The notes beneath the pieces are model-generated. The model did no database searches and was not told the origin of the DNA. It saw nothing but the letters and a program-made list of their open reading frames with translations. The translations under genes were made by a program, and so were the position numbers. Shown in pieces: positions 16,970-33,821 of a DNA stretch of 64,000 nucleotides (positions are counted from its first letter, which is position 1; every line of letters begins with the position of its first letter). The DNA comes from Methylotenera versatilis 7 (GTDB lineage: Bacteria > Pseudomonadota > Gammaproteobacteria > Burkholderiales > Methylophilaceae), in the NCBI RefSeq assembly GCF_000799165.1, contig NZ_JUGF01000002.1, positions 1,364,001 through 1,428,000 of the forward strand, in the 5' to 3' direction.

Positions 16970-17002
16970 GTGTTTCCCCATTCATTAATAACACTGTTTT
17001 GA

Positions 17003-17030
17003 ACGTGGGGATAAGCGGTTTTATTTCAAG
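17003..17030 (-). promoter_or_regulatory. Sigma-32 (RpoH) promoter upstream of grpE
   Basis: On the minus strand CTTGAAA (17024-17030), 13-bp spacer, CCCCACGT (17003-17010). This fits the proteobacterial heat-shock consensus CTTGAA-N13-15-CCCCAT almost exactly and sits about 35 bp before the grpE start. No CIRCE element is seen here even though hrcA is present in the window. Confidence 0.8.
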
Positions 17031-17084
17031 TGCGCCAGTGCAAAATTGGCACAATATTTTGGATAAACTAGACTAAATTAACCA

Positions 17085-17110
17085 ATTGAATATGATTATT
17101 GAATATGATT
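17085..17110. repeat. Exact 13-bp tandem duplication over the waaC stop
   Basis: ATTGAATATGATT at 17085-17097 is repeated directly at 17098-17110. The waaC TAA (complement of 17096-17098) lies at the junction, so one copy is coding and the other is past the stop. Confidence 0.95.
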
Positions 17111-18049
17111 CAAGCACGTCAAGACATCATCCACACTCGGAGTTTTGCCAATATTACCCAAGTTAATCGCTTGCGCCTGACTACCCATTACACCAGTAAG
17201 TGCGGGGTTGGTGTCGGTGTAAATCGCGATAGTGGGAATATTCAGCGCTGCTGCCAAATGCGATAAACCCGTATCGACGCCAATAGCGGCTTTTGCTTGG
17301 CTAATCACAGATGCCAGCTCTTCAATGCTCAATTTAGGTAATACAACCGAATTATGCAACGACTTGGCAATTTGCTCTGCTCGCGACAACTCAGCTGGAT
17401 TAGACCACGGCAGCACAATGCTGACCTGTGTTTGGTTTAGCGCTTTTCCTAGATCAATCCAGTGCTCTGTTGGCCACAGTTTGCTATCGCGGCTAGTGCC
17501 ATGCAACGCGATAATGTAAGGTTTTTTTGGAATATTTTCCGAATTCGGTTTTGCTTCCAAACCATAATCCGGCACTGCCGAAGGCGGATCATAATCGATG
17601 CTTAATGCAGCTAAAGCACGATTGCGCGTAACTGCATGCTGCTGATAAGAAATGCTATATTTTCTATCATAAAAATAACTGGCAAGCGGCTCGCGAATCG
17701 ACCGTTTATCATAACCATGTTTAACGCCATGGGTGAAGCGCGTAATCAGCGCGCTTTTTAATAAACCTTGCGTATCAATCACTGCGTCGTAATTGTTTTG
17801 TGCAATTAAGTGTTTGAATCGTTTGATTTCTTCCCAAGTTTTTGCATTCAACAATTGTTTGCGCCAACGTCTGAATGCAACCGTGTAAACGCGATTAATG
17901 CGTGGGTGCAGGCGTGGAATATCAGCAAAATTTTCTTCAACCACCCAATCAATCTGCACGTCCGGATAAGCGACATGAATGTCGTTAATAACAGGTAAAC
18001 AGTGAATAACATCGCCTAGCGATGAAGTTTTAACGATGAGAATTTTCAT
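17096..18049 (-). CDS. waaC: LPS heptosyltransferase I (WaaC)
   Basis: Adds the first L-glycero-D-manno-heptose from ADP-heptose to Kdo-lipid A, at the cytoplasmic face of the inner membrane. GT9 fold: KILIVKTSSLGDVIHCLPV at the N-terminus with the SLGD motif, DTQGLLKSAL, HGTSRDSKLWP, and GVDTGLSHLAAAL near the C-terminus, all diagnostic. Start at 18049 (MKILIV); ATG 18061 is a possible alternative. 317 residues. Divergent from waaG across only 40 bp, so control elements of both must be compact. Confidence 0.94.
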   Translation of the reverse strand: MKILIVKTSSLGDVIHCLPVINDIHVAYPDVQIDWVVEENFADIPRLHPRINRVYTVAFRRWRKQLLNAKTWEEIKRFKHLIAQNNYDAVIDTQGLLKSALITRFTHGVKHGYDKRSIREPLASYFYDRKYSISYQQHAVTRNRALAALSIDYDPPSAVPDYGLEAKPNSENIPKKPYIIALHGTSRDSKLWPTEHWIDLGKALNQTQVSIVLPWSNPAELSRAEQIAKSLHNSVVLPKLSIEELASVISQAKAAIGVDTGLSHLAAALNIPTIAIYTDTNPALTGVMGSQAQAINLGNIGKTPSVDDVLTCLNHIQ

Positions 18050-18089
18050 GGTTTCAGGCATTTTCGCATACAATTGATTTTTTGTTATT

Positions 18090-19286
18090 TTGAAAGCGTT
18101 AAGTCGCTCAAAACCATCTCAATTGCACTTTGCTTTTATCATTTTTAAATATTTTCCATTTGGTGGCATGCAGCGCGATATGCTGCGCACCGCTAACGAG
18201 CTGGTTAAACGCGGGCATATTGTAGAGATTTTCACCATGAGTTGGCAAGGCGATATGCCGGCCAATATCAAAGTGCATGAATTACCACAAAAGGCCTGGT
18301 TTAATTATCAACGCTACCAACAGTTTATACAGGCTACTTTTGCGCAAATAAAACACAGTCATTTTGATTATGTGTTTGGCTACAACCGCATGGCCGGTTT
18401 GGATGCGCACTTTGCCGCAGACCCTTGTTTTATAGAGCGTGCGCACAAGCAGCGCAGTTTTTTATATCGATTATTACCACGTTTTAAATGGTTCGCTGCG
18501 TGTGAAAAAGCGGTATTTTCGGCAGAACTGAATACACAGATATTAGCGGTTTCACTCACCGAAAAACCGCATTTTCAACATTGGTACGGCACGCAAAGTG
18601 AGCGCTTTCACTATATCCCACCATTTTTATCGCCAGAGCGATTTGTATTACAAGATAAAGCGGCAATGCGCGCGCATTTGCGCAATGCTTTTGGCTTTGG
18701 TGTGAATGATTTTGTGTTTTTACTAACCGGTTCTGGCTTCGCGATGAAAGGCTTGGATCGTGCGATTCTGGCGCTTGCCGCATTGCCTGATGATGTACGT
18801 GCCCACACAAGATTGGTTGCGGTGGGGCAGGATAACCCTAAGCAATTTGAAAAAATGGCGAAAAAACTGGGTATTGAAAATCATGTTGTGGTGTCAAAAG
18901 GCCGGCCCGATACGCCACAATTGATGCAAGGTGCAGATGTGTGCATACATCCAGCATATCGTGAAAATACTGGTTTAGTGATTTTAGAGGGCATGGCTTG
19001 TGGCGCGCCAATGCTGGTTACGGCAAGTTGCGGCTATGCGCATCATGTGACGGATGCCGATGCGGGAATTGTATCGGCTTCGCCCTTTAATCAAACCCAG
19101 TTTAACCAACAGTTTTTGCAGATGATACAGACCAATGAAAAAGCACAATGGGCACAAAATGGTTTGGCTTATGTGCAGCAAATTATGCAGGCCAACGACG
19201 GTAGCGCAGAAGCTGAAATTTTAATTAAACTTGCAGAGACAAAGCTGGCCAATCAAAACGCAGCCTTGCAGAAAAAGAAATCGTGA
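18090..19286 (+). CDS. waaG: LPS core glycosyltransferase, WaaG type
   Basis: GT4 retaining glycosyltransferase expected to add the first hexose to the inner-core heptose. The N-terminal motif KYFPFGGMQRDM, YNRMAGLDAHFAADPCFIERA and the EX7E motif in ENTGLVILEGM are characteristic of WaaG. 398 residues; E. coli WaaG has 374. The start is TTG at 18090, since no ATG precedes the conserved beta strand. The stop overlaps the waaP ATG by 4 bp. Gene order waaC/waaG/waaP matches other proteobacterial core loci. The transferred sugar cannot be read from the sequence. Confidence 0.9.
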   Translation: MKALSRSKPSQLHFAFIIFKYFPFGGMQRDMLRTANELVKRGHIVEIFTMSWQGDMPANIKVHELPQKAWFNYQRYQQFIQATFAQIKHSHFDYVFGYNRMAGLDAHFAADPCFIERAHKQRSFLYRLLPRFKWFAACEKAVFSAELNTQILAVSLTEKPHFQHWYGTQSERFHYIPPFLSPERFVLQDKAAMRAHLRNAFGFGVNDFVFLLTGSGFAMKGLDRAILALAALPDDVRAHTRLVAVGQDNPKQFEKMAKKLGIENHVVVSKGRPDTPQLMQGADVCIHPAYRENTGLVILEGMACGAPMLVTASCGYAHHVTDADAGIVSASPFNQTQFNQQFLQMIQTNEKAQWAQNGLAYVQQIMQANDGSAEAEILIKLAETKLANQNAALQKKKS

Positions 19287-20104
19287 TGATGAACAGCCAT
19301 TTAGTTGTGCCTGACGAAATCAAACAACATTTAAGCGGTGAAGCCTTTAGCGCGCTGATGCAAATGCCTGGTAAAGCTTATCGTGACGTGCGTGGGCGTA
19401 AAACCATACAAGTGAAGTTGGGGAAAAAGAGCTATTTTATTAAGCAGCATTTTGGCGTGGGTTGGGCTGAGATTTTTAAGAATTTAATTGCTTTTAAAAA
19501 ACCGATTCTTGGCGCGATGACAGAGGTACATGCCATTCAAAAACTCAACGCAATTGGCATACCCACCACACCGCTAGTAGCTTATGGTCAGCAGGGCTGT
19601 AATCCCGCAACTATGCAGTCTTTTGTGATGACAGAAGATTTAGGCGAGATTGTGACGCTGGAAGATATTTGTGCCGACTGGCCTAGCTACTCGGATGGTT
19701 TCAAACAAGCGCTGATGCAAGCGATGGCGGAACTCGCCAGCAAATTACATGGCGCAGGGCTTTGCCATCGTGATTTTTATTTATGCCATTTTGTATTGAA
19801 AAAACAGGATTTAGACTTTAAAAATTCAAACATTAAAAATCTACATTTGATTGATTTGCATCGCATGCTACAAGGCCAATCAAGTAGCGGAAACGCTGTC
19901 ATGAAAGATATTGCAGGGTTATATTTTTCTGCGTTGCAATGTGGATTAAGCACAAAAGAATTGGATGTTTTTAAACAACATTATTTGCCGCAAAACACTG
20001 CTTTCTGGGCGAAGGTTGAACGCCGTGCGCAGGCTTTGTTAACTAAATTTAATAGCCAGAAATTTCAGCAACGTTTGCAAAAAGAAAAGTCTGCTATTCG
20101 TTAG
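19283..20104 (+). CDS. waaP: LPS core heptose kinase, WaaP type
   Basis: Phosphorylates the first core heptose, which strengthens the outer membrane through divalent-cation bridging. 273 residues of protein-kinase-like fold: ATP-binding K54 (YFIKQ), catalytic D164 in HRDFYLCHF, and metal-binding D191 in LIDLHRM. Three consecutive ATG codons at the start leave the exact initiator open. Translationally coupled to waaG by a 4-bp overlap. Its 3' end overlaps the convergent lpxL-type gene by 11 bp. Confidence 0.93.
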   Translation: MMMNSHLVVPDEIKQHLSGEAFSALMQMPGKAYRDVRGRKTIQVKLGKKSYFIKQHFGVGWAEIFKNLIAFKKPILGAMTEVHAIQKLNAIGIPTTPLVAYGQQGCNPATMQSFVMTEDLGEIVTLEDICADWPSYSDGFKQALMQAMAELASKLHGAGLCHRDFYLCHFVLKKQDLDFKNSNIKNLHLIDLHRMLQGQSSSGNAVMKDIAGLYFSALQCGLSTKELDVFKQHYLPQNTAFWAKVERRAQALLTKFNSQKFQQRLQKEKSAIR

Positions 20105-21002
20105 TTTGTTTTGTGGGTTTTGATTTCAATTCTGCAGTAGTTGCCGGCGTTTCTCGTTTTTCCATCGCATGTCGTCTTTGTTTGTAACGGTCATAACGCC
20201 ATAAATATTGTGTTGGATTTAGCGCGATTTGTTGTTCAATTGCATTGTTTAGTAGTGTCGTTGTGGTAATCGATTCCAAGCGGGTAATGTGAATATCATA
20301 ACCGGCACCATTTACTAGCCGCTCACCAAACGCCATTAATACTGTTGCGCCTGTTTTTTCAGCTAACTTGCTGGCAAGCGTCATTGTGTAGGCAGGTTTG
20401 CCGAAAAAATCCGCCCATTCTCCTTCGCCTGCAGCGGGGATTTGGTCAGGCAAAATGCCAATAGCTTCATTACGTTTCAATGCCTGCATCAGTTTTCGTA
20501 CACCACTTGCGTTTGCTTCTGCCAATGTGACACCTGTACGTTTACGGCCATTTAAAATAAGCCTTTCCAGCCACTTTAGTTTTGGTGGGCGATACAGCAC
20601 GGTAATCGGATGTCGGTTGCCGTAATAAATAGATGTGATTTCAAAGCAACCCAGATGTGGCGTTAAAAAGATAATTCCTTTGCCTAATTGCAGCGCGTCT
20701 TTAACCACCTCCCAGCCATGCACTTGTTTGACTAAAGGCAGGATATCCGCCTCTTTTTTTTGCCAAATCATTGGTGTTTCAAATATTGCTTTACCAAGCT
20801 CAACAAAACTTTTACGTGCTATTTCTTTTACCTCTAGGGGGGGTTTAGCCAGCTGGCTTTGCTTAATATTCGTAATGGTGCGTTTTTTAGCTTGCGGCAT
20901 ACAATAAAAAAGTAGCGTGCCTAAGCAAAAACCTAGGCCATGCAGCACGCGTAGCGGCAAGTAAGTAAACGGATTTAAAATAAATGACAACATGGTCAGC
21001 AA
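20094..21002 (-). CDS. lpxL: Lipid A biosynthesis acyltransferase, LpxL/HtrB family
   Basis: Adds a secondary acyl chain to Kdo-lipid IVA from acyl-ACP at the inner membrane. 302 residues with an N-terminal hydrophobic anchor (about 5-33). The HX4E catalytic motif appears as HLGCFE, and downstream blocks YRPPKLKWLE, GILPDQIPAAGEG and FFGKPAYTM fit the LpxL/LpxM family. LpxL and LpxM cannot be separated from sequence alone. Convergent with waaP with an 11-bp overlap and divergent from the next gene. The C-terminal 25 residues are basic and polar, probably disordered. Confidence 0.92.
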   Translation of the reverse strand: MLTMLSFILNPFTYLPLRVLHGLGFCLGTLLFYCMPQAKKRTITNIKQSQLAKPPLEVKEIARKSFVELGKAIFETPMIWQKKEADILPLVKQVHGWEVVKDALQLGKGIIFLTPHLGCFEITSIYYGNRHPITVLYRPPKLKWLERLILNGRKRTGVTLAEANASGVRKLMQALKRNEAIGILPDQIPAAGEGEWADFFGKPAYTMTLASKLAEKTGATVLMAFGERLVNGAGYDIHITRLESITTTTLLNNAIEQQIALNPTQYLWRYDRYKQRRHAMEKRETPATTAELKSKPTKQTNE

Positions 21003-21076
21003 TTATACGTGATAAGCACGAAACTGCATTTGTGCCGTTTTAAAGTGTATGTTGACTGATATAATTTACCCTTTCT

Positions 21077-21847
21077 ATGTTGGTAGAGTTTTCACCATTG
21101 TTCCAATCTAACGATTATCAAGCGCTTTTGGCACAGCATCAATTGACAGATTTTAATGCTATTTGGAACCGGGATATTGCCTGGTTTGAACCGCCGAACG
21201 AGCGTCGTGGCGGCTTTAGCGGTGTAGGTAAGCTATTGTTGCGAACGGAAGATGGCGAAAATTTCATTTTTTTTGTGAAAAAGCAGCAAAATCACGGTCG
21301 CAAAAGCTGGGCGCATCCAGTTATAGGCGAGCCTACTTTTAGACGCGAGTTTCGAAATTTAACTTTTTTGCAAAAACACAATATTGGCGCACCAAGTGTT
21401 GTGTACTACGCAGAAAGTACATCTACCAATCAGGCCATTCTGATTACAGAAAATTTAACCGATTTTGTGCCACTCGATACAATTAATTTAAGTCAATTGC
21501 AGCAGGCGCAGCAATACGATTTAGTTAAAAAAGTGGCCACGGAAATTAAGCGATTTCACGATACCGGTATGGTGCATCGCGCGCTTTATCCAAAGCATAT
21601 TTTCGTTAAAAACGCAGGGACAGGTATCGCACCCGAAGTTGCATTAATTGATTTAGAAAAAGCACGTTTTTCGCCACTGGCCTGGTATCGTGCGTATTTT
21701 GATTTGGCCGCCTTTTTAAGGCACACAGTTGATTGGGATGATGGGCGTAAGTTGTTATTAATAAAAAGCTATTTAGAAAAAATCGAGCTAAGTTTTTTTG
21801 ATAAACTGCTATTTAGTATGATTACACACCGTGCCAACCGTGTCTAA
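21077..21847 (+). CDS. LPS kinase (InaA/WaaP-like) family protein lacking the catalytic Asp
   Basis: 256 residues of the lipopolysaccharide-kinase fold. A basic HGRKSWAHPVIGEPTFRREF region and K68 or K69 in FFVKK resemble the ATP-binding part. The catalytic loop reads MVHRALYPKHIFV, with A169 where WaaP has Asp, while D192 of LIDLEKARF is kept. Similar YPKHI loops without Asp occur, as I recall, in the Pseudomonas WapP-type neighbours of waaP. Predicted to modify inner-core heptose, or to be a pseudokinase. First gene of a closely spaced plus-strand run to 26744. Confidence 0.85.
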   Translation: MLVEFSPLFQSNDYQALLAQHQLTDFNAIWNRDIAWFEPPNERRGGFSGVGKLLLRTEDGENFIFFVKKQQNHGRKSWAHPVIGEPTFRREFRNLTFLQKHNIGAPSVVYYAESTSTNQAILITENLTDFVPLDTINLSQLQQAQQYDLVKKVATEIKRFHDTGMVHRALYPKHIFVKNAGTGIAPEVALIDLEKARFSPLAWYRAYFDLAAFLRHTVDWDDGRKLLLIKSYLEKIELSFFDKLLFSMITHRANRV

Positions 21848-21858
21848 GCGATTTTGAT

Positions 21859-22644
21859 ATGACCAACGAAAAACCAAGTTTCGCCATTGTCATGGTGAAT
21901 TACAAAACATTAGAACTTACCAAGATTAGTTTGTCCTTGTTAAAGCAGCATATAGATGCCGGCTTGATTGCAAGCACAACCGAAGTTTGGGTGGTAGATA
22001 ATGACTCGCAAGACGCCAGCACAGATTATTTGCGCAGCCTGGATTGGATACATTTGATAGAGCGCAAAGCCGCTGGTAAAGAACAAGGTTTTGCTGCGCA
22101 TGGCCATGCGCTGGATGTGGTGTTGTCAAAAGTTAACTGTCAGTATTTGTTTTTGATGCATACTGACACTTTTATTTACCAGCCAAAAGTGTTTGAAATA
22201 TTATTGGCGAACTTGAAAAGTCAGCCCAATGTTGTGGCGACGGGTTGCCTAGAGCAAATTAATCGTGGCTATTTGCGCAGCTATTGGCGTTTAGTCTCTC
22301 GTTTTTGCAAGCACTATTCACGCCGTGCAGTGCGCTTTCTGGGTATTAATGGGCGTGAGCCAAAACCTTATAAAGAACAATACATTAAAAGTTTTTTTGC
22401 GTTGTGGGATGTTAGTTGGATGAAAGAGAATAAGCTCACTTTTTTTATGCAAAACCGTATTCCAGGTTATGCGCTGCAAGATATCGCGCTTGAGACAGGA
22501 CGTAATGTTAAACATATTTCTGCCATGCAATTGTTTAAATATTTAGACCATGTCGAAGCTGGCACTGTTGGGTTGGTAGCGGGCTATGATGACATGAACA
22601 GGCGAGTAAAGCGTAAGTTGGCGCTTCTGAAAAAATATCAATAA
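21859..22644 (+). CDS. GT2 family glycosyltransferase
   Basis: 261 residues with a GT-A fold: FAIVMVNYKTLELTKISL at the N-terminus, VWVVDNDSQDAST (nucleotide-sugar binding) and a DxD-like HTDTF. The C-terminal half has no multi-helix membrane domain, so this is a soluble or peripheral enzyme adding one sugar, most likely to the LPS core given the neighbours. It starts 12 bp after the kinase-like gene and ends 13 bp before the oxygenase gene. Donor and acceptor unknown. Confidence 0.88.
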   Translation: MTNEKPSFAIVMVNYKTLELTKISLSLLKQHIDAGLIASTTEVWVVDNDSQDASTDYLRSLDWIHLIERKAAGKEQGFAAHGHALDVVLSKVNCQYLFLMHTDTFIYQPKVFEILLANLKSQPNVVATGCLEQINRGYLRSYWRLVSRFCKHYSRRAVRFLGINGREPKPYKEQYIKSFFALWDVSWMKENKLTFFMQNRIPGYALQDIALETGRNVKHISAMQLFKYLDHVEAGTVGLVAGYDDMNRRVKRKLALLKKYQ

Positions 22645-22656
22645 ACGATTGCTAGT

Positions 22657-23538
22657 ATGACTAAAAAAATGACAGGCTTTTTACCGATTCAAATCCAGCA
22701 GGGTTTGCAGTTAGATGCTGAAAAAGCGCTTGAAATTGGCCAATCGCAAATGGGGGAGTATGCTTTTGCAGAGCCATTTTGCCATGCCGTAATTGATGAT
22801 TTTTTGCCGACTGATTTGGCCGAGCAGATATTACAACACTTTCCAGTAGAAAAAAAAGCACACGATAAAATTTATCAAAAAGGTTATGGCGGCCAGTATA
22901 AACGCCAAATCATGCCTGCCGATTGCGATGAGTTTACACGCAACCTATTTGGCTTTTTTAACTCATCCAGTATGCTCAAGTTTCTTGAGGGCATCACCAA
23001 TATTCAAGGCTTGTTACCAGACCCGTATTTTGCCGGTGGTGGTTTTCACGAGATTTCTACTGGTGGTCTGCTGGGTATTCATGCCGATTTCCGTGTCAAT
23101 GAAGGTTTACAGTTGATCCGACGGGTAAATGTACTCATTTATCTTAATAAAGATTGGCAAGATACTTATGGCGGAAAATTGGAGTTATGGGATAAAACTA
23201 TGCAAAACAAGGTGAAAGAAGTTGCGCCATTATTTAATCGTTGCGTAATTTTTAATACCGATGCGGATAGCTATCACGGTCATCCAGAGCCGCTAACTAC
23301 GCCCTCCGATATTACCCGTAAATCCATCGCACTGTACTATTACACCGCTTTACCCATTGCCAATGATACGGGTGAATCGCGTCACACTAATTACGTGGCC
23401 CGCCCGAACGACACAGCAAAAAATATTGCAGATGCAAAAAAACTGGCCAAAAAACGCGACAGGCGAGCAAAAAAAATGTTTGGACAGAATGAACATTGGC
23501 TAAGTAATGTAAAACAAAAAATCAAAAAATTATTTTGA
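22657..23538 (+). CDS. Fe(II)/2-oxoglutarate-dependent oxygenase
   Basis: 293 residues with a prolyl-4-hydroxylase-like core. The iron triad is H142 and D144 (GIHADF) with H207 (SYHGHPEPL), and R221 (TRKSIALYYY) is the expected 2-oxoglutarate ligand. LIYLNKDWQDTYGGKLELWD between them is the typical double-stranded beta-helix stretch. A basic tail (KKLAKKRDRRAKKMFG) may bind membrane or nucleic acid. Its place inside an LPS-decoration operon suggests hydroxylation of a core sugar or of a sugar substituent, which is inference. No signal peptide. Confidence 0.9.
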   Translation: MTKKMTGFLPIQIQQGLQLDAEKALEIGQSQMGEYAFAEPFCHAVIDDFLPTDLAEQILQHFPVEKKAHDKIYQKGYGGQYKRQIMPADCDEFTRNLFGFFNSSSMLKFLEGITNIQGLLPDPYFAGGGFHEISTGGLLGIHADFRVNEGLQLIRRVNVLIYLNKDWQDTYGGKLELWDKTMQNKVKEVAPLFNRCVIFNTDADSYHGHPEPLTTPSDITRKSIALYYYTALPIANDTGESRHTNYVARPNDTAKNIADAKKLAKKRDRRAKKMFGQNEHWLSNVKQKIKKLF

Positions 23539-23550
23539 GCTTGCTCAAAT

Positions 23551-25020
23551 ATGCCTAATTTTTTGTATCAATTTAAACAGCCGTGCCGTGCCGATTTTGT
23601 GTTGAAACTGGCTGACTTAACGGTTTTGACATGCCAGGAAGTGGTGCGTGTTGTTCCAGGAAAACGTGTTGTGTGCCAAGCTTTGTGGCAAGACAAGACT
23701 GTATATGCAAAACTATTTTTTGGTAAAAATGCCAGCAAATATGCCGCACGCGATGCAGCTGGCGTCAGGTGGTTGATGGATGTAGGTATTGATACGCCGC
23801 GCATGCTGTACCAAGGTGAGACAGTAGGAGAAAGCACGCAAGTGCTTATTTTTGAGGCGATAGCGCCTGCGAATAATGCAGAGCAAATTTGGCAGAATTT
23901 AAACCAAAATCATCGCTTAGCTTTAGCTAAAAAAATAGTCGCTGAAGTTGCCAAACATCACAACGCGAATTTGTTGCAAACGGATTTATACCTGAAGAAT
24001 TTTTTAGTCTCCGGTGACAAAATTTATACGCTTGATGGTGATGGCATACGCAAATTTTCACATTTAAGCAGCGAGCAAGCATTGCAAAATCTGGCCGTCA
24101 TCTGGTCTAAGTTTGATGTGCTGGATATTGAGAAGTGGCAAGCAGTTTTGGCAGACACCTATTCAAACGCGCGCGCATGGAATAGTGGCCTGGAACCAGC
24201 AAAGCTTGCCAATATGGCGAATCGGCACCGCCTGCAGGCAGCAAGTCGTTATGCCGATAAGAAAGTGTTTAGGCAATGTGCCGATGTGAATGTTATTGCC
24301 GTGCGAGACTTATTAGTTGCATCTTCCAGTGATGCTAATATAAATGCACCGATAAGTCTGCCCGAATTGGATGCTTTGATACAACCGCACAATCTGCTAA
24401 AAAATGGCAATACCTGTACTGTGGCTCTGGCAGAGATTGGCAACAAAAAAATTGTTGTTAAACGTTACAATATTAAGAATTTTTGGCATGGTATCAGCCG
24501 TGCGTTTCGGCCTAGCCGCGCTGCGATTTCTTGGGCTAATGCACATCGCCTCAGTATTTTAGACATAGCTACCGCCAAGCCCTTTGCGTTGATAGAGCAG
24601 AGGCGCTTGAGCTTTCTGGTGGGTGGGTTAAGAGGTAAAGCCTATTTTTTGGCGGAATATCTGGATTTACCCGATGTGACAGAATATTTTGCTTGTACAC
24701 ACGATAAAGCCCAGCGTGCTGAGGCAATCAAAAATATCGTGGCCTTGTTTTATAAGTTGTTTTTACTGCAAATTAGCCACGGCGATACCAAAGCCACTAA
24801 TATTAAAATGCAAGGAACACTGCCGGTATTAATTGATTTAGATAGTATGCGCCAGCATCGCAAAATCAATGTCGTTGCACATGTGCGCGATTTACAGCGG
24901 TTTATGCAAAATTGGCAAGACAACGCAAGCCTGTATAATGCGTTTGTGAAGACATTTAAAGTCACATATCCCGATGACTCAATGCTGATTAAAGCAGGCA
25001 TTACAACCAATAAAGAATGA
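23551..25020 (+). CDS. Two-domain LPS kinase (InaA/WapQ-like)
   Basis: 489 residues containing two protein-kinase-like domains in tandem. Domain 1 (about 1-235): K54 in VYAKLFFGK, D145 and N150 in QTDLYLKNFLV, D162/D164 in LDGDG. Domain 2 (about 280-480): K304 in IVVKRYN, HGDTKATN (D412, N417) and D429/D431 in LIDLDSM. Both have intact catalytic and metal residues, so both may be active. Length and position directly before a carbamoyltransferase gene match the wapQ-wapO arrangement of Pseudomonas. Probably phosphorylates core heptose. Confidence 0.86.
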   Translation: MPNFLYQFKQPCRADFVLKLADLTVLTCQEVVRVVPGKRVVCQALWQDKTVYAKLFFGKNASKYAARDAAGVRWLMDVGIDTPRMLYQGETVGESTQVLIFEAIAPANNAEQIWQNLNQNHRLALAKKIVAEVAKHHNANLLQTDLYLKNFLVSGDKIYTLDGDGIRKFSHLSSEQALQNLAVIWSKFDVLDIEKWQAVLADTYSNARAWNSGLEPAKLANMANRHRLQAASRYADKKVFRQCADVNVIAVRDLLVASSSDANINAPISLPELDALIQPHNLLKNGNTCTVALAEIGNKKIVVKRYNIKNFWHGISRAFRPSRAAISWANAHRLSILDIATAKPFALIEQRRLSFLVGGLRGKAYFLAEYLDLPDVTEYFACTHDKAQRAEAIKNIVALFYKLFLLQISHGDTKATNIKMQGTLPVLIDLDSMRQHRKINVVAHVRDLQRFMQNWQDNASLYNAFVKTFKVTYPDDSMLIKAGITTNKE

Positions 25021-25025
25021 ATTAA

Positions 25026-26744
25026 ATGATTGTATTAGGCATATCTGGCGCGCTGGGGCATGATGCTTCGGCGGCAATTTTAATTGATGGAAAAATCATC
25101 GCCGCGGCGGAAGAAGAGCGTTTTATTCGCGATAAACATGCGAAAAATCAATTTCCATATGAAGCAACAAAATTCTGCCTGAAACAAGCAGGCATCAAAG
25201 CTGAAGATGTCGATATTGTGGCTTTTCCGTATGCAGAGATTCCGCTAACCAGTAAGGCGCGCTGGCATTATGCAAAACGTCATTGGTACGCGCCAGATCG
25301 CGCCTTGGATGCGCTGTTTAATGGCAATAGAAGATTCCGTCGTAATCGTGATAAATTGCTAAAATTAATGGCGGATTTAGGGTTAACTAACGCTAAATTC
25401 GTACCAGTAGAGCATCATTTGGCACACGCTTCCAGTGCATATCATTTAAGTGGCTTTAAAGAAAAAACTGCCATTGTCGGTATTGATGGCAAGGGCGAAT
25501 ATGCCACGACTTTTTTTGGTTATGGCGAAAATGGCAAAATTCATAAAATTAAAGAGTTTTATGATCCCGATTCTCTCGGTGGCATGTATGGCGCGATCAC
25601 CGAATATTTGGGCTTTGAAATGCTCGATGGCGAATTTAAAGTCATGGGTATGGCACCGTATGGCGATGCCAGTAAATATGATTTATCTCGCTTGGCGACT
25701 TTTGAGAATGGTGAGTTGGTGATTGATACCACGCTGGTGAATGTGGTTGGGTTACGCCGTTATAAAGAAAATGGTAAAGGCTACTACTTCACGCCGGAAC
25801 TCATTGATTGGCTTGGACCAAAGCGTAGCGGTGACGAAATCGATAATCCATATATTCATTATGCGGCTTCTGTGCAGGCTTTGTTGGAAGACGTTGCGCT
25901 GAAAATGATTGATTATTATCTTGGCGATATTATTAAAGAAACTGGCAAAATCGTGATGGCTGGTGGTGTTGCGCTTAATGTTAAGTTAAATCAGCGCATT
26001 ATCAGCATGCCGCATGTAAAAGAGCTATTCGTGCAACCTGCATCTGGTGATGCAGGTACTTCGCTTGGCGCTGCAACTTTTGCAGCAAATGCAGCGGGCG
26101 ACACGGTTGAGCCAATGCAACATGCGTATTTAGGCCCAGCGTTCAGCAGTGAAGAATGTGTTGCTGCTTGTGAAGCACATCCGAATAAGCCGATATTCAC
26201 CAAAGTGGATAATTTCCCGCAAAAAGCCGCTGAATTGCTAGCGGCGGGTAATCCATTGGCATGGCTGCAAGGGCGCATGGAATTTGGTCCACGCTCATTA
26301 GGCTGTCGCAGTATCCTGGGCGATCCGAGCTTTCCCGGTGTAGCTGATCGCATCAATGCGCAGATTAAATATCGTGAACGTTGGCGTCCTTTTTGCCCAA
26401 GTATGTTGGATAAAGCCGCACCTGAGATATTGCAAACCAATCACCCCGCGCCATATATGACATTCACATTTGATGTGGCCGAAAGCTGGAAATCGCGTAT
26501 CCCAGAAGTGGTGCATGAAGACGGTACAGCACGTGCGCAAGTGGTCACATATGCAACAAATCCACGCTATTACGAGTTGATTGAGCATCTTGAGAAATTG
26601 CGTGGTAATCCTGTTGTGCTTAATACATCACTCAATCGCCGTGGAGAACCGATGATCTGCTCGCCAACGGATGCACTGAATATGTTTTATGGCTGCGATC
26701 TGGAGTATTTGATGATGGAAGATATTCTTGTCACCAAAAAATAG
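25026..26744 (+). CDS. Carbamoyltransferase, NodU/CmcH family (WapO-like)
   Basis: Transfers the carbamoyl group of carbamoyl phosphate, via carbamoyl-AMP, to a sugar hydroxyl. 572 residues: N-terminal Kae1-like domain with GISGALGHDASAAIL, metal-binding histidines in VEHHLAHASSAY, IDGKGEYAT and VMAGGVALNVKLN, and a C-terminal domain with GPRSLGCRSILGDP. Five bases separate it from the two-domain kinase gene. In P. aeruginosa the equivalent gene (wapO, next to wapQ) carbamoylates the second core heptose; the same role is inferred here. carAB, which makes carbamoyl phosphate, is also in this window. Confidence 0.92.
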   Translation: MIVLGISGALGHDASAAILIDGKIIAAAEEERFIRDKHAKNQFPYEATKFCLKQAGIKAEDVDIVAFPYAEIPLTSKARWHYAKRHWYAPDRALDALFNGNRRFRRNRDKLLKLMADLGLTNAKFVPVEHHLAHASSAYHLSGFKEKTAIVGIDGKGEYATTFFGYGENGKIHKIKEFYDPDSLGGMYGAITEYLGFEMLDGEFKVMGMAPYGDASKYDLSRLATFENGELVIDTTLVNVVGLRRYKENGKGYYFTPELIDWLGPKRSGDEIDNPYIHYAASVQALLEDVALKMIDYYLGDIIKETGKIVMAGGVALNVKLNQRIISMPHVKELFVQPASGDAGTSLGAATFAANAAGDTVEPMQHAYLGPAFSSEECVAACEAHPNKPIFTKVDNFPQKAAELLAAGNPLAWLQGRMEFGPRSLGCRSILGDPSFPGVADRINAQIKYRERWRPFCPSMLDKAAPEILQTNHPAPYMTFTFDVAESWKSRIPEVVHEDGTARAQVVTYATNPRYYELIEHLEKLRGNPVVLNTSLNRRGEPMICSPTDALNMFYGCDLEYLMMEDILVTKK

Positions 26745-26856
26745 CAGCTAAATTCTCATCATTGTTTGAATATACTGTCTAGTTTAGCTCATTCAAATTC
26801 AATGCGATTTTCAACCTGATTTTGCGATCAAAACCGCGTTTTTCTACACGGTTAAT

Positions 26857-26885
26857 TTGACGGATAAGGCTCAATTAGCGATAAT
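26857..26885 (+). promoter_or_regulatory. Sigma-70 promoter for edd
   Basis: TTGACG (26857-26862), 17-bp spacer, GATAAT (26880-26885), close to consensus and about 55 bp before the edd ATG. A short inverted repeat AACCG/CGGTT (26832-26853) just upstream of the -35 is a possible regulator site. The 194-bp gap holds nothing else I recognise. Confidence 0.65.
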
Positions 26886-26938
26886 CGGACAGTTAGGTTT
26901 TTATTTAAATAGCAGTTAACCATTATAAAAAAGCATTT

Positions 26939-28753
26939 ATGAAACAATCTCTAGTAGAAGTGACCGAACGTATTATTGAACGCAGTCGACCAACTCGCAC
27001 TGCTTACCTGCATCGTGTCGATGAGATTCTGAAGCGTGAAAAAGGTGCCGACAGACTGGGCTGTGCTAACGTAGCACACGCTGTTGCTGCTCTGCCAGCT
27101 AGTGATAAGTTCAAAATCGTGGTTGAAAAAGCGCCGCATATTGGCATTGTCACAGCCTACAACGAGATGCTTTCAGCGCATCAGCCTTATGTGAACTACC
27201 CGGATATTCTGCGCGATGAAGCGCATAAATGTGGCGCGACCGTACAAGTGGCGGGTGGTGTGCCTGCTATGTGTGATGGCATTACGCAAGGCGAGCCAGG
27301 CATGGAGTTGTCGCTATTCAGTCGCGATAATATTGCCATGGGCACTGCGATTGCGCTTTCGCATGATGTGTTCGATGCCGCTTTGTTGCTGGGCGTTTGC
27401 GATAAAATCGTGCCGGGCTTGTTGATTGGCGCACTGCATTTTGGACATTTACCGTGCGTATTTGTGCCTGCAGGTCCAATGAGTACGGGCTTGGATAACA
27501 CATCAAAATCTAAAGTGCGTGAAAAATATGCACAAGGTATTGTGGGGCGCGAAGAGTTATTTTCTTCAGAATCTGCCGCTTATCATGGTGCTGGTACCTG
27601 CACGTTTTATGGTACGGCTAATAGCAACCAAATGTTGTTAGAGGCGATGGGTTTACACGTACCAGGCGCGGCGTTTATTCACCCGCATGATGGTCTGCGT
27701 GAAGATTTAACCCGCGAAGCAGTTAGATTGGTATTGAATAACACACGTAAAGATAACTTTATTCCAATTGGTAAGTTGGTAGATGAACACGTGATCGTAA
27801 ATGCGATGGTAGCTTTGTTGGCAACCGGCGGCTCAACTAACCATCTTATTCACTGGGTAGCTGTAGCGCGTGCTGCAGGCATTATTATCGACTGGACAGA
27901 TTTTCATTATCTTGCAAAAGGTACGCCGTTATTGGCGAGCGTTTACCCTAATGGCAAAGCGGATGTTAATGAGTTTCAAAATGCTGGTGGCCCTGGTTTT
28001 GTGATACGCGAGCTGATTGACGGCGGTTACATGTACCCAGATGTATATACCGTAGCTAGAGGCGGTTTGCGCGAATTTGGCAAAAAACCTGTTAAAGAAG
28101 ATGGCACGTTGGTCTGGAAAGATTATCCAGCCGAGAGTGGCGATGAAACAGTTGTCAGAACTGCTGCGCATCCCTTTAACGAATCAGGTGGCTTACGCTT
28201 GTTAAAAGGTAATTTAGGCCGTAGCGTCATTAAAATTTCTGCCGTGCCAGAAGATCGACATATCATTGAAGCGCCAGCGATTGTGTTTGATGCACAAGAG
28301 GAATTATTGGCCGCGTTCGATCGCGGAGAACTTGAGCGTGATTTTGTAGCGGTAGTGCGTTTTCAAGGACCTAAAGCCAACGGTATGCCAGAATTACACA
28401 AATTAACACCACCATTAGCCGTGTTGCAAAACAAAGGCTTTATGGTTGCAATCGTGACGGATGGCCGCATGAGCGGTGCATCGGGTAAGATTCCTGCTGC
28501 GATTCATTTAAGCCCGGAAGCAAGTGCAGGCGGTGCAATTGCCAAAATTCGCACTGGCGATATCATACGTTTAAATGCAAGTGTAGGTACGCTGAATGTA
28601 TTGGTGGACGAAGATACTTGGGCAGAGCGTGAAGTGGAGGAATTATCTGATGCTAAACGCAACAATAATTCGCATGGTATTGGGCGTGAGTTGTTTGGTG
28701 GGATGCGGAAAAATGTATTATCCGCCGAAGAAGGCGCAATCACCTGGCTATAA
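26939..28753 (+). CDS. edd: Phosphogluconate dehydratase (Entner-Doudoroff)
   Basis: Dehydrates 6-phosphogluconate to 2-keto-3-deoxy-6-phosphogluconate. The 604-residue IlvD/Edd family protein has the iron-sulfur cysteines in [26 protein letters not shown] and [16 protein letters not shown], plus [17 protein letters not shown] near the C-terminus, all of which mark Edd rather than the amino-acid enzyme IlvD. eda follows 190 bp downstream. In methylotrophs of the ribulose monophosphate type this pathway can cleave hexose phosphate; that link is inference. Confidence 0.96.
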
Positions 28754-28844
28754 ACTTTGCAAATCGACTGATGTTGCAATCACTTGCCCTACTATCGTAC
28801 TGTCTGCGCTCATGTGTCTTGCTTTCAGCCGATTATCAAAGTTT
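28752..28844. repeat. Palindromic repeat element E2 between edd and eda
   Basis: Arms AAACTTTG (28752-28759) and CAAAGTTT (28837-28844), with a further AATCG/CGATT pair inside. The core TTGCAATCACT, then TACTATCGTACTGTCTGCGC (28790-28809), is shared with the element at 42482-42560, which carries about 14 extra bases in the middle. Together these are a dispersed repeat family. Confidence 0.7.
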
Positions 28845-28880
28845 AGGCTGTTGATATCGCTAAGAACTACTTAATCTATC

Positions 28881-28900
28881 ACTCCCGCGCAGGCGGGAAT
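28881..28900. repeat. dRS3-like 20-mer
   Basis: ACTCCC-GCGCAGGC-GGGAAT differs by one base from the neisserial dRS3 pattern ATTCCC-N8-GGGAAT. The CCCGC/GCGGG stem is also a small hairpin. Single copy in this window, 45 bp before eda. Confidence 0.5.
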
Positions 28901-28944
28901 CCATTTTAAAGTTTAAATATTCATTTTTTTAACTAGGTAACAAT

Positions 28945-29574
28945 ATGATTAATACATTAGATTTAGCAAAAGAAGGTCCAGTAATCCCCGTTATCGTGAT
29001 TAACAAAGTAGAAGATGCCGTACCAATGGCAGAAGCTTTGCTGGCGGGTGGTATTCGCGTATTGGAAGTGACATTGCGTTCATCTTGCGCACTGCAAGCG
29101 ATGGAACAGATTGCGAAACACGTACCAGATGCAATTTTAGGTTCAGGCACTGTGCGTAACTTAAAAGATGCGCAGGCCTCATTAGATGCAGGCTGTAAAT
29201 TTGCGGTTAGCCCAGGCTACACAACAGAATTAGGTCAATTTTCGCGCAAAATTGGTTTGCCATTATTGCCAGGCGTTTCAACTGGTTCAGAAATCATGAC
29301 AGCTAACGCAGATGATTATTTTTTCTTAAAACTATTCCCAGCAGTTGCAGTGGGCGGTGTTAACTTGTTAAAAGGTTTTGCTGGTCCTTTTGGCGATGTG
29401 AAATTTTGTCCAACTGGCGGTGTTACAGTTGATTCTGCACCACAGTTTCTAAGCTTGCCTAATGTGGTGGTTTGTGGCGGTACATGGTTAACGCCAGCAG
29501 ATGCAGTTGCGCGTAAAGACTGGGCGCATATTACCAAATTAGCTAAAGAGGCTAGTGCAATTAAACCTGCATAA
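28945..29574 (+). CDS. eda: KDPG/KHG aldolase
   Basis: Class I aldolase cleaving 2-keto-3-deoxy-6-phosphogluconate into pyruvate and glyceraldehyde 3-phosphate. 209 residues, usual length. Catalytic E41 in EVTLRS and Schiff-base K129 in FFLKLFPA correspond to E45 and K133 of the E. coli enzyme; GSGTV and CPTGGV phosphate-binding loops are also present. Separated from edd by 190 bp holding two repeat elements, so the pair may not be co-transcribed uniformly. A strong terminator follows. Confidence 0.97.
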   Translation: MINTLDLAKEGPVIPVIVINKVEDAVPMAEALLAGGIRVLEVTLRSSCALQAMEQIAKHVPDAILGSGTVRNLKDAQASLDAGCKFAVSPGYTTELGQFSRKIGLPLLPGVSTGSEIMTANADDYFFLKLFPAVAVGGVNLLKGFAGPFGDVKFCPTGGVTVDSAPQFLSLPNVVVCGGTWLTPADAVARKDWAHITKLAKEASAIKPA

Positions 29575-29595
29575 GTGAATGGTTGCGTTAAAATT

Positions 29596-29626
29596 AGGGT
29601 TTGTGTTTTAACACAAACCCTTTTTT
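29596..29626 (+). terminator. Intrinsic terminator after eda
   Basis: GGGTTTGTG...CACAAACCC stem (29597-29620) followed directly by TTTTTT, 22 bp past the eda stop. Confidence 0.92.
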
Positions 29627-29704
29627 ATTGAGCGTAGATTTTATCGAGCTTAAGTTTTATTAAGCCTGAGTTGATTGATTTTGAAATTGAAGTGAGGAAG
29701 TTTT

Positions 29705-30379
29705 TTGCACTCGTTAACTAAAACCTTGGATTTAAAAAAATATAAAGCAATCGTGTTCGATTGTGATGGCGTGATTCTGGATTCGAATGTTGTGAAAACT
29801 GAAGCTTACTTTCGCACCGCTAAAAATTTAGGTGCAACAGATGAGCAAGCACAAGCGCTGGTAGATTATCACGTTAAATTAGGTGGTATTTCGCGTTATC
29901 ACAAGTTTGATTGGTATTTGCGCGAAGTATTAAAGCAAGCTGTCACAGACGAAGCAATTCAAGTTTTATTGGATGAGTTTAGCCGCGAGTTAGAAGAAGG
30001 TTTAATGCATTGCACCATTGCCGATGGCTTGCAAGAGTTACGTGATGCCACAGCAGGTATTAAATGGATGATACTTTCTGGTGGCGATCAACAAGAAATT
30101 CGCGACTTATTTGCCAAACGTAAGCTTGCCGATTTATTTGACGGCGGCTTGTTTGGCAGCCCAGATAATAAAGATGCAGTTCTGGCGCGTGAAAAAGCCA
30201 GCGGTAATTTGCAGCTGCCCGCATTATTTATTGGTGACAGCAAATACGATCATGAGGCATCCACAAATGCAGGACTGGATTTTATTTTTGTCAGTGATTG
30301 GACAGAGGTGCCTGACTGGCAGGATTTCTGTCGTGAAAACCACATTTGTGTAGAACCCAATATAAGGTCACTGTATTAA
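29705..30379 (+). CDS. HAD-family phosphatase
   Basis: 224 residues, haloacid dehalogenase superfamily. TTG start with AGGAAG upstream. Motif I is FDCDGVILDS (nucleophile D19, acid D21), motif II LSGGD, motif III around DNKDAV, motif IV GDSKYD. The C1 helical cap suggests a small phosphorylated substrate such as a sugar phosphate. The stop overlaps the ATG of the next kinase-like gene (TAATG), so the two are coupled and probably serve the same glycan pathway. The substrate is not recognisable. Confidence 0.85.
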   Translation: MHSLTKTLDLKKYKAIVFDCDGVILDSNVVKTEAYFRTAKNLGATDEQAQALVDYHVKLGGISRYHKFDWYLREVLKQAVTDEAIQVLLDEFSRELEEGLMHCTIADGLQELRDATAGIKWMILSGGDQQEIRDLFAKRKLADLFDGGLFGSPDNKDAVLAREKASGNLQLPALFIGDSKYDHEASTNAGLDFIFVSDWTEVPDWQDFCRENHICVEPNIRSLY

Positions 30380-31074
30380 TGTTTCTTTATTTCCAGCAAT
30401 TTTATTTTAAGAGCCAACCGTTATCAAAAGTAATGTTTGATGATATGTGCATGCAGGGTAAAGTTATTGAACAGGATGAGCGTGGCATAAAAGTAATCGA
30501 ATTACCAAATGGTGACATGTTAAAAGTTTTTAGAGTTAGACACTTATTGAGCGGCACTCAGTTATATACGCATGCAAGACGCTTTTGCCGAAATGCACGG
30601 CGATTAAAAAGTATAAATATTCCGACAGTAGAGGTTAAAAAGTTATTTTACTTCAAAGATAATCGACATGCTGCTGTTTTATATTCGCCCCTTGTTGGCA
30701 TGACGTTAAAGGAATACGTGCATAAAGGCGGTGTCGACATCGAATATTTAGCACAAAAACTTGGTACGTTTATAGCTACGCTACATTTAAAAGGTGTACA
30801 TTTTCATTCCTTACACACTGGTAATGTAGTGATTACACCGCAAGGTGAAGTGGGTCTTATTGATATATCAGACATGAGCATTTATCCTTGGCCACTATTA
30901 TGTAATACCCGTGTTAGAAGTTTTAAGCGCCTTTGCCGTTATACAGATGAGATTGAAATGCTGGGTGCAGAGTTTTGGCAATCGCTACAGAAGCATTATT
31001 TCAAGCACAGTTTATGTAGCCCTTGGTGTAAAGATAAAATTGAACAGGCTAATAAGAAGCTGATTGTTTTTTAG
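30379..31074 (+). CDS. Kinase-fold LPS protein (InaA-like) with Ser at the catalytic Asp position
   Basis: 231 residues from the ATG embedded in TAATG. The fold matches the LPS/InaA kinase group: K49 region MLKVFRVRH, helix FIATLHLKG, then the catalytic loop HFHSLHTGNVV, where S144 replaces the usual Asp, and LIDISDM with D162 and D165 as metal-site candidates. Similar loops with RSLH occur in proteins sometimes called toluene-tolerance-like, as I recall. It may be a pseudokinase or use another base. Lies between a HAD phosphatase and a GT4 glycosyltransferase, so a role in the outer core is likely. Confidence 0.82.
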   Translation: MFLYFQQFYFKSQPLSKVMFDDMCMQGKVIEQDERGIKVIELPNGDMLKVFRVRHLLSGTQLYTHARRFCRNARRLKSINIPTVEVKKLFYFKDNRHAAVLYSPLVGMTLKEYVHKGGVDIEYLAQKLGTFIATLHLKGVHFHSLHTGNVVITPQGEVGLIDISDMSIYPWPLLCNTRVRSFKRLCRYTDEIEMLGAEFWQSLQKHYFKHSLCSPWCKDKIEQANKKLIVF

Positions 31075-31081
31075 AAGATAT

Positions 31082-32224
31082 ATGATGCAAAACCAGACTC
31101 AGCAATGGGTGATACAAATCTGTCATAGTTACTACCCACCGTTTTTAGACTGCGCTAGGCAATACGCAGTTTTATTTAAAGACTCACCCTACAAAGTGCT
31201 GACCGTTTATTTAACGGGCGAAGCCAATGTGGGAACTGAGCAAGGTAGTGCATCAGATAAAGTCGTTTTTTTAGGCTATAAAAGTAGCCAAGTAAGGGGC
31301 TTAAAGTTAGGCGCTATTCACAAAATTAAACAACTCAATCAAAGTTACACATTTAAATTTTGTATCGCACATCGTGTAAAGCCGACCTACGTAGCGTTAT
31401 TGGCTACTAATTTACCGGTAATTAGCGTGCACCACAACTACAATGATTACAGCAGTTGGTCAAGAAGAATCATTGTCAACTTTTTTAAATCGCGTTTACT
31501 CATGTTGGGCGTTTCTAATAGTGTGCGCAATGACTTGAGGCGCGATTTAAGGGGATGGGAGGCTGAGAAAATTCAGACGCTCTATAATCGTATCGATGTA
31601 TTTACGACACAGCTTTCTATGTTATCCAAAACTGAAGCTAGAAAAGCACTGAATTTACCACAATCCGCATGGATAGTAGGTAGCGTGGGTAGGTTGCATC
31701 ATGACAAGGACCATGCCACACTGATTCGTGGTTTTGAAAAGTCGCTGTTGCAATTGCCAAAGAATAGCTTGTTAGTGATTGTCGGTAAGGGTCCTTTAGA
31801 GGAAAGTTTAAAACGATTAGTGGCTAATCTTAAGTTGGAATCCAATGTGATTTTTACAGGTAATCTCCCTGATGCGAAACGCTATTTTAAAGCGTTTGAT
31901 GTGTTTGCATTAACATCAGATCATGAGCCGTTTGGAATGGTATTGTTAGAGGCCATGGTTGCAGAACTACCTATTATTTGTAGTGATTGCGGTGGCGGGG
32001 CCGAGGTAGTGAAGAATATAGGGCAATTGTTTTCGCTAGGAAACTCAGATGAGTTGGCGACACAGTTAGTCAATACGTATCAAGTAGATGTGCAAAACCA
32101 TCATCAAAAACAGAGCTGGCAAGACTCAAATATGCAAATTGAATTAAATCGTTACTTTTCAGATGAAGCTGCAAAAGGTTATTTTTGGTGCTTACCTTTT
32201 GTTAAGCAGTGCATATCCAATTAA
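31082..32224 (+). CDS. GT4 family glycosyltransferase
   Basis: Retaining GT-B glycosyltransferase of 380 residues from ATG 31082 (a second ATG follows directly). Visible motifs are SVHHNYNDYSSW-like acceptor region, the donor-side start VGSVGRLHHDKDHATLI, and EX7E in HEPFGMVLLEAMVAELP. It follows the kinase-like gene by 7 bp and is convergent with the OpgB-like gene 16 bp away, without an obvious terminator between. Probably extends the LPS outer core or an O-antigen unit; the sugar is unknown. Confidence 0.88.
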   Translation: MMQNQTQQWVIQICHSYYPPFLDCARQYAVLFKDSPYKVLTVYLTGEANVGTEQGSASDKVVFLGYKSSQVRGLKLGAIHKIKQLNQSYTFKFCIAHRVKPTYVALLATNLPVISVHHNYNDYSSWSRRIIVNFFKSRLLMLGVSNSVRNDLRRDLRGWEAEKIQTLYNRIDVFTTQLSMLSKTEARKALNLPQSAWIVGSVGRLHHDKDHATLIRGFEKSLLQLPKNSLLVIVGKGPLEESLKRLVANLKLESNVIFTGNLPDAKRYFKAFDVFALTSDHEPFGMVLLEAMVAELPIICSDCGGGAEVVKNIGQLFSLGNSDELATQLVNTYQVDVQNHHQKQSWQDSNMQIELNRYFSDEAAKGYFWCLPFVKQCISN

Positions 32225-32240
32225 GACTATATAAAATTCA

Positions 32241-33773: not shown

Positions 33774-33821
33774 GAGTTAAACCTGAACGAAATGAGTCTG
33801 ATGATTGTAAGTTTGATGATT

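Follow-up and report, generated by a model that had tools for sequence, protein, structure and literature searches.

Homology and gene order show that a stretch of 64,000 nucleotides from Methylotenera versatilis 7 (positions 1,364,001 to 1,428,000 of contig NZ_JUGF01000002.1, hereafter the window) contains a Pseudomonas-type inner-core operon for lipopolysaccharide (LPS), of the kind marked by the carbamoyltransferase WapO. Into this operon two further genes are inserted, one for a GT2 glycosyltransferase and one for an Fe(II)/2-oxoglutarate (2OG) oxygenase, here called OGO. The explanation that we favour, for which the chances stand about level, is that the operon possesses a slot for core decorations and that this slot here holds a two-enzyme module in which GT2 would act first and OGO second. 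The five genes concerned are:

21077–21847, plus strand: K1, a WapQ/InaA-type kinase of the Kdo/WaaP fold (PF06293, 5.2e-29; InaA model only 54.1 bits against a cut-off of 235)
21859–22644, plus strand: GT2, a glycosyltransferase (PF00535, Glycos_transf_2, 6.5e-07; 29.9 bits against a cut-off of 23.3)
22657–23538, plus strand: OGO, an Fe(II)/2OG oxygenase (PF13640, 2OG-FeII_Oxy_3, 2.9e-17)
23551–25020, plus strand: K2, a two-domain kinase of the PA5006 type (PF06293 in two stretches, 3.4e-14)
25026–26744, plus strand: CAR, a WapO-type O-carbamoyltransferase (PF02543, 1.6e-43, and PF16861, 1.6e-65; TobZ, 1.2e-92)

The gaps between these open reading frames (ORFs) are 11, 12, 12 and 5 bases. The original prediction, made from the DNA letters, had described five plus-strand genes 5–13 bp apart for a WaaP-like kinase, a GT2, a 2OG oxygenase, a two-domain kinase and a carbamoyltransferase; the layout is as it described, and Pfam confirms the families. 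It had also proposed a neighbourhood search for a GT2 and a 2OG oxygenase between kinase genes, and this arrangement does recur: the order GT2-OGO-K2-CAR is kept in 14 of 80 genome loci with OGO (L082–L085, L087–L096), hosted by Methylotenera, Methylophilus, another Methylophilaceae bacterium and one Betaproteobacteria record. K1 is present in 13 of the 14, the contig of the fourteenth beginning inside GT2, and edd likewise in 13 (partial in L092, missing from the short contig L094). Two of the 14 come from genomes that reappear in the family survey below as G073 and G076. GT2 and OGO have a G+C content of 41.0–41.7 %, close to the 41.0 % of K1 and the 42.8 % of the window, so that composition gives no sign of a recent arrival.

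At the protein level, the HTDT sequence at residues 101–104 of GT2, a DxD-like motif, is invariant in 16 alignment rows. The 2OG active site of OGO is intact, with the HxD...H triad (H142, D144, H207) and the 2OG-binding R221 invariant in 31 alignment rows, and its fold is predicted with confidence by an AlphaFold2 model (mean pLDDT 92.0) that matches the superfamily fold.

GT2 and OGO are inherited together. In Pseudomonas, the GT2 and OGO proteins of Leaf48 (Pseudomonas sp., L189) were queried against 398 genomes, in a database genus that may be narrower than the usual Pseudomonas. GT2 was found in 90 of them and OGO in 60, in a close form (at least 69 % identity) in 54 and in a distant form (40–46 %) in six. 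All 54 genomes with a close OGO also possess GT2, compared to 36 of the 344 others (Fisher 7e-43, ignoring relatedness) and to none of the six with only a distant OGO. The two genes are neighbours in 33 of the 54 and lie on different contigs or more than 500 kb apart in 21, and OGO adjoins GT2 in all of the best-scoring 30 GT2 loci of the genus. Unlinked copies occupy at least two separate places on the Pseudomonas tree, with three more that the tree leaves open, and two places among Methylophilaceae. The trees thus call for three or more switches in linkage with both genes kept, or for four losses if the ancestor was linked. For example, in G868 there is no GT2 beside OGO, and an ABC-transporter-like gene lies near it; compared by eye over the first residues, this gene is also found ahead of the linked pair of the sister genome G567.

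Three further observations concern the Pseudomonas pairs. A possible GT2-OGO fusion in G567, suggested by a 558-codon open frame for GT2, was rejected, since the sequence of the locus contains two ORFs, of 269 and 272 aa, and not one. The pair of G513 (L352:4996-9606) is flanked by two similar transposase-like ORFs, presumably IS5-like, which may help to explain scattered positions. G486 and G848 each carry two pairs, although the second OGO match in G848 covers residues 1–140 only.

The same association is seen in Methylophilaceae. GT2 is present at 47 % identity or more in seven of 60 family genomes, all of which also contain OGO at 54 % or more (Fisher 8.9e-06); OGO at this level occurs in seven of the other 53, all within the window's own genus. 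Weaker matches (GT2 up to 37 %, OGO up to 40 %) were not counted, among them G029 and G082 with both genes at 30–36 % and G071 with GT2 at 30 % and no OGO at the threshold. In three of the seven (G031, G072, G083) OGO lies far from the core cluster while GT2 occupies the slot, and L187, L246, L247 and L273 are loci of this kind, where GT2 stays in the core cluster with OGO away from it.

The OGO tree places 15 slot copies, the L086 copy, the Leaf48 copy and three unlinked copies in one clade (94/91), in which Leaf48 and the unlinked copies form a group (100/99). Four OGOs from the genus of the window do not belong to this clade. In the GT2 tree Leaf48 groups with the genus of the unlinked copies (89/63) and the slot rows form an open fork, so that this less well supported tree is compatible with that of OGO but not decisive. 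The tree program warned of long branches. Since L086 belongs to the OGO clade and has no neighbouring GT2, a GT2 was predicted elsewhere in its genome, and one is indeed present (52 %), in the LPS core cluster. Altogether GT2 occurs in 10 of 10 searched genomes of the OGO clade, compared to none of 15 searched genomes with an OGO outside it. These 15 comprise seven of the family sample and eight further named genomes; three of the seven, G006, G008 and G014, are not on the tree and were placed outside by identity. The L097 genome, which is G012, was not counted twice.

In the Pseudomonas genomes a close OGO is therefore never found without GT2, whereas GT2 is sometimes found without a close OGO, which suggests that GT2 comes first and that OGO modifies its product. 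On these genomic grounds the simplest reading would be that GT2 makes the substrate of OGO.

The position of the pair in Methylophilaceae is a variable decoration slot just upstream of the PA5006-type kinase gene. We define the slot as the stretch upstream of K2 up to K1, an acyltransferase gene or waaP, and surveyed it in the 39 genomes with a CAR orthologue among the 60 searched; 38 could be read, the contig of G036 ending inside K2. Representatives of the inserted genes were scanned and the remaining copies assigned by similarity to them. The slot contains GT2 and OGO in four of the 39 (G000, G033, G073, G076), GT2 alone in three genomes of one genus (G031, G072, G083), a GT9-family gene in five (G007, G008, G013, G014, G062), an ArnT-like membrane transferase in seven (G010, G011, G016, G017, G021, G032, G074), a protein resembling phosphoethanolamine (PEtN) transferases in four (G020, G024, G067, G079; before K1 in G067), a methyltransferase in two (G001, G026) and no extra gene in 13. 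The PEtN transferase label reflects PF00884 and context, and the ArnT-like label PMT_2 together with a match to the ArnT model of 103 bits, below its cut-off of 567.

K1 is not seen in any of the seven ArnT-like loci (L173, L175, L177, L181, L243, L250, L251), of which that of G017 (L181) is on a contig that stops before waaP. The ArnT-like transferase and K1 thus look like alternatives at the slot. In loci of the Methylophilus type the waaP match lies downstream of edd-eda and not upstream.

The surrounding cluster includes waaC on the minus strand, followed upstream of the five ORFs by waaG and waaP, and a further glycosyltransferase gene downstream:

18090–19286, plus strand: waaG-like GT4 glycosyltransferase (PF00534, 5.2e-30; 42 % to the same-place Leaf48 gene; the GalN-transferase position in Pseudomonas)
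19283–20104, plus strand: waaP heptose(I) kinase (NF011703 RfaP, 267 bits, cut-off 170)
20094–21002, minus strand: acyltransferase of the lipid A/lysophospholipid acyltransferase family (PF03279, 4.9e-37; PRK08905, 324.7 bits, cut-off 281)
31064–32224, plus strand: wapH-type GT4 glycosyltransferase, downstream of edd-eda (PF00534, 2.6e-33; 51 % to the Leaf48 gene directly after the carbamoyltransferase)

In Leaf48 the order is waaC, waaG, waaP, kinases in the places of WapP, WapQ and PA5006, the carbamoyltransferase, and a GT4 in the place of wapH, a name taken from the gene order in an excerpt of PMC8005017. The same excerpt lists PA5009 as waaP, PA5008 as wapP, PA5007 as wapQ, PA5006 as a kinase and PA5005 as the putative carbamoyltransferase wapO, and ties the carbamoyl group in Pseudomonas to heptose II (HepII). 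Identities between the window and Leaf48 are 42 % for waaG, 39 % for waaP, about 31–32 % for K1, 33 % for K2, 71–72 % for CAR and 51 % for the GT4 in the wapH place. Compared with the Pseudomonas cluster (waaF-waaC-waaG-waaP-wapP-wapQ-PA5006-wapO-wapH), the window shares waaC, waaG, waaP, K1, K2, CAR and the WapH-type GT4. It differs in a divergent waaC, in the acyltransferase gene inserted between waaP and K1, in the separation of the wapH-like gene by edd-eda-HAD, in the position of GT2 and OGO between K1 and K2, and in showing no match to Leaf48 WapP within 17001–36000.

Gene order and identity thus agree with the original prediction of a Pseudomonas-type waa/wap cluster into which a GT2 and an Fe/2OG oxygenase are inserted; its WapO label fits both the identity of CAR and the matching neighbours. 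Its placing of the operon just after waaG-waaP is right as to the two upstream genes but overlooked the minus-strand acyltransferase gene, and its kinase labels have to be corrected: the first kinase, named wapP, is of the WapQ type, and the two-domain kinase, named wapQ, corresponds to PA5006. In alignment A3, K1 is 32 % identical to Leaf48 WapQ, 20 % to Leaf48 WapP and 18 % to the WaaP of the window, and we assign it to the WapQ type by identity and cluster position. The Asp of its HRD motif is replaced by Ala (HRALYPKH in the window, HGCFYPKH in Leaf48), and the other WapQ-type rows of the alignment also lack this Asp. In WaaP, the D163A exchange gave no growth (excerpt of PMC6147952). WapQ-type proteins may be pseudokinases, or may use another base.

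CAR combines a Kae1-like N-terminal with a YrdC-like C-terminal domain (PF02543 at 3–350, PF16861 at 402–571). Like the class III O-carbamoyltransferases TobZ, GdmN and NodU it keeps both domains, and in an alignment with TobZ the general-base His and the four metal ligands are retained (H12, H130, H134, D154, D342). These would correspond to the catalytic and metal residues H27, H133, H137, D156 and D333 given for GdmN in an excerpt of PMC9633730. Unlike those enzymes, however, CAR falls in a WapO group at 62–96 % identity, and by identity and its place beside a PA5006-type kinase it is assigned as the WapO orthologue; K2 adjoins CAR in eight of 14 loci of the class that were read (L226–L229, L233, L234, L236, L237). 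Orthologues of CAR occur in 39 of 60 Methylophilaceae genomes including the window's own (38 others at 71–96 %, one match partial) and in 25 of the 369 class genomes sampled, again including the window's own (24 others at 62–75 %, one partial). Carbamoyltransferase copies not of the WapO type are 33–41 % identical to CAR, apart from one 73-residue piece at 51 %. As the cluster is shared and CAR strongly conserved, core phosphorylation and carbamoylation would be the ordinary part of this locus. The prediction of an unusual combination therefore stands for the GT2-OGO module and the variable slot, but not for the WapO-type cluster as a whole, which is not rare.

Past edd-eda-HAD, the window again contains LPS-type genes between 30346 and 35051, namely a small Bud32/RIO-like kinase, the wapH-type GT4 and a sulfatase-family protein; a minus-strand membrane protein in this region might, at a guess, be a ligase. 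No functional RNA or tRNA was found in the window. The genome assembly totals 2.5 Mb, divided among 3 contigs.

According to the explanation that we favour, GT2 would transfer a sugar from an activated donor onto the growing lipid A-core at the cytoplasmic side of the membrane. OGO would then hydroxylate this sugar, or a residue dependent on its addition, as the one-way dependence suggests. The flanking kinases would phosphorylate, and CAR would carbamoylate, the heptoses, as proposed for Pseudomonas and as orthology leads one to expect. Tentatively, and with slightly more doubt than belief, this can be extended to a portable GT2-OGO module by which the WapO-type core of Methylophilaceae and Pseudomonas receives a sugar that is then hydroxylated, the slot being a hot spot, perhaps driven by phages, at which core decorations are swapped: a hydroxylated sugar, a GT9 sugar, an aminoarabinose-like sugar, phosphoethanolamine or methyl.

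Wider relatives of GT2 lend support to an action of the group on the LPS core, without proving it. A distant GT2 group (23–33 %) is found in 14 other genomes of the class among the 369. Five of the 14 possess WapO, or six of 15 including the window's own, where about one would be expected (Fisher 1.7e-4); GT2 lies within 3 kb of WapO in four of the 14 and beside a K2-type kinase gene in a fifth. No OGO was found in the flanks of the 14 distant GT2 genes, read up to 1.5 kb.

Several points weigh against the favoured explanation. Hydroxylation is not required for GT2 function, as 36 Pseudomonas genomes have GT2 and no close OGO. In the Pseudomonas loci read the pair lies outside the core cluster, so that an LPS target is there assumed by analogy. 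Relatives among the genomes are not independent cases, and the Fisher values overstate the association. At the threshold applied, a WapO orthologue is missing from nine of the 14 genomes of the class that have a distant GT2. At 63 loci outside Methylophilaceae, glycan families are not clearly more frequent among the neighbours of OGO than among genes over 6 kb distant: Glycos_transf_2 accounts for 6 of 121 near and 5 of 88 far proteins, Sulfotransfer_3 for 5 of 121 and 2 of 88, PMT_2 for 7 of 121 near proteins without being among the best 25 families of the far set, and Bac_transf for 4 of 88 far proteins without being among the best 25 of the near set. Since only the best 25 families were compared, this gives no clear support for a glycan context of OGO; 63 of 64 loci were used, L158 being dropped for want of a fitting ORF, and one, L104, belongs to the GT2-linked clade. 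Finally, the best structural matches of OGO are Tpa1/OGFOD1 and PHD2, which are protein prolyl hydroxylases.

The location of the Pseudomonas pair away from the wap cluster would also be expected if GT2 and OGO decorated another glycan (O-antigen, exopolysaccharide or glycoprotein), their place in the Methylophilaceae core operon being secondary, and by eye some OGO relatives lie amid exopolysaccharide-looking genes (L097, L028). This is unlikely but deserves some weight; in Methylophilaceae, GT2 keeps its place in the core cluster also when OGO has left, and the distant GT2 relatives of five genomes also accompany WapO genes.

Alternatively, OGO could act first and hydroxylate a pre-existing core residue, 3-deoxy-D-manno-octulosonic acid (Kdo) or heptose, the new hydroxyl being the attachment site for GT2. 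There is a precedent in KdoO, the Kdo 3-hydroxylase of Yersinia and Burkholderia, like OGO an Fe/2OG oxygenase of LPS inner-core assembly (excerpt of PMC8533242), and the location of OGO inside the core operon would fit. However, KdoO has its step between the Kdo transferase and WaaC, whereas OGO accompanies GT2, and no chain named Kdo hydroxylase is found among 40 PDB profile matches or 50 fold rows for OGO, in a search that could miss one. Moreover, such an order predicts that GT2 needs OGO, yet 36 of the 90 GT2-bearing Pseudomonas genomes have no close OGO, which makes it rather improbable.

The structural matches might instead indicate that OGO is a protein hydroxylase, of the type acting on prolyl residues of a ribosomal protein or EF-Tu, co-inherited with GT2 by chance. 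Its identity to the prolyl-hydroxylase-like 2OG oxygenases Tpa1/OGFOD1, PHD2, PolD and PasI is 16–21 %, and no substrate can be read from these matches; we regard this explanation as quite improbable. That the association reflects nothing but shared descent and hitchhiking of neighbours, as linkage in 33 of 54 Pseudomonas genomes and the tie of a single OGO clade to GT2 might suggest, is very improbable, since on the trees linked copies are interspersed with unlinked ones (G868; the G500/G543/G877 group; genus g18; L086), neither gene being lost.

Some matches to OGO were also seen on mobile elements. Leaf48 OGO matches 44 plasmid records, all below 60 % identity and 28 of them from Sinorhizobium; Leaf48 GT2 matches none of the plasmid records. 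The OGO of the window matches six phage records, also below 60 %. The Streptomyces phages Zuko and KimJongPhill (H15–H18) carry genes 30–35 % identical to OGO, and the match in Zuko coincides in part with an annotated glycosyltransferase gene.

In the open literature, judging by the titles and abstract starts of the matches listed, no GT2 and 2OG-oxygenase pair acting on the LPS core and no core structure from Methylophilaceae was found. If the extended reading of a portable module is true, OGO would be the first 2OG oxygenase described, within the literature searched, that acts on a sugar of the core besides Kdo. An odd operon thereby becomes a testable two-step pathway present in named genomes of Methylophilus, Methylotenera and Pseudomonas, for which the one-way dependence suggests the order of reactions and lets one expect that a named mutant would differ by 16 Da in mass. 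The slot survey locates a source of core diversity across the family and, as a conjecture, this diversity could bear on receptors for phages and tailocins and on the charge of the outer membrane.

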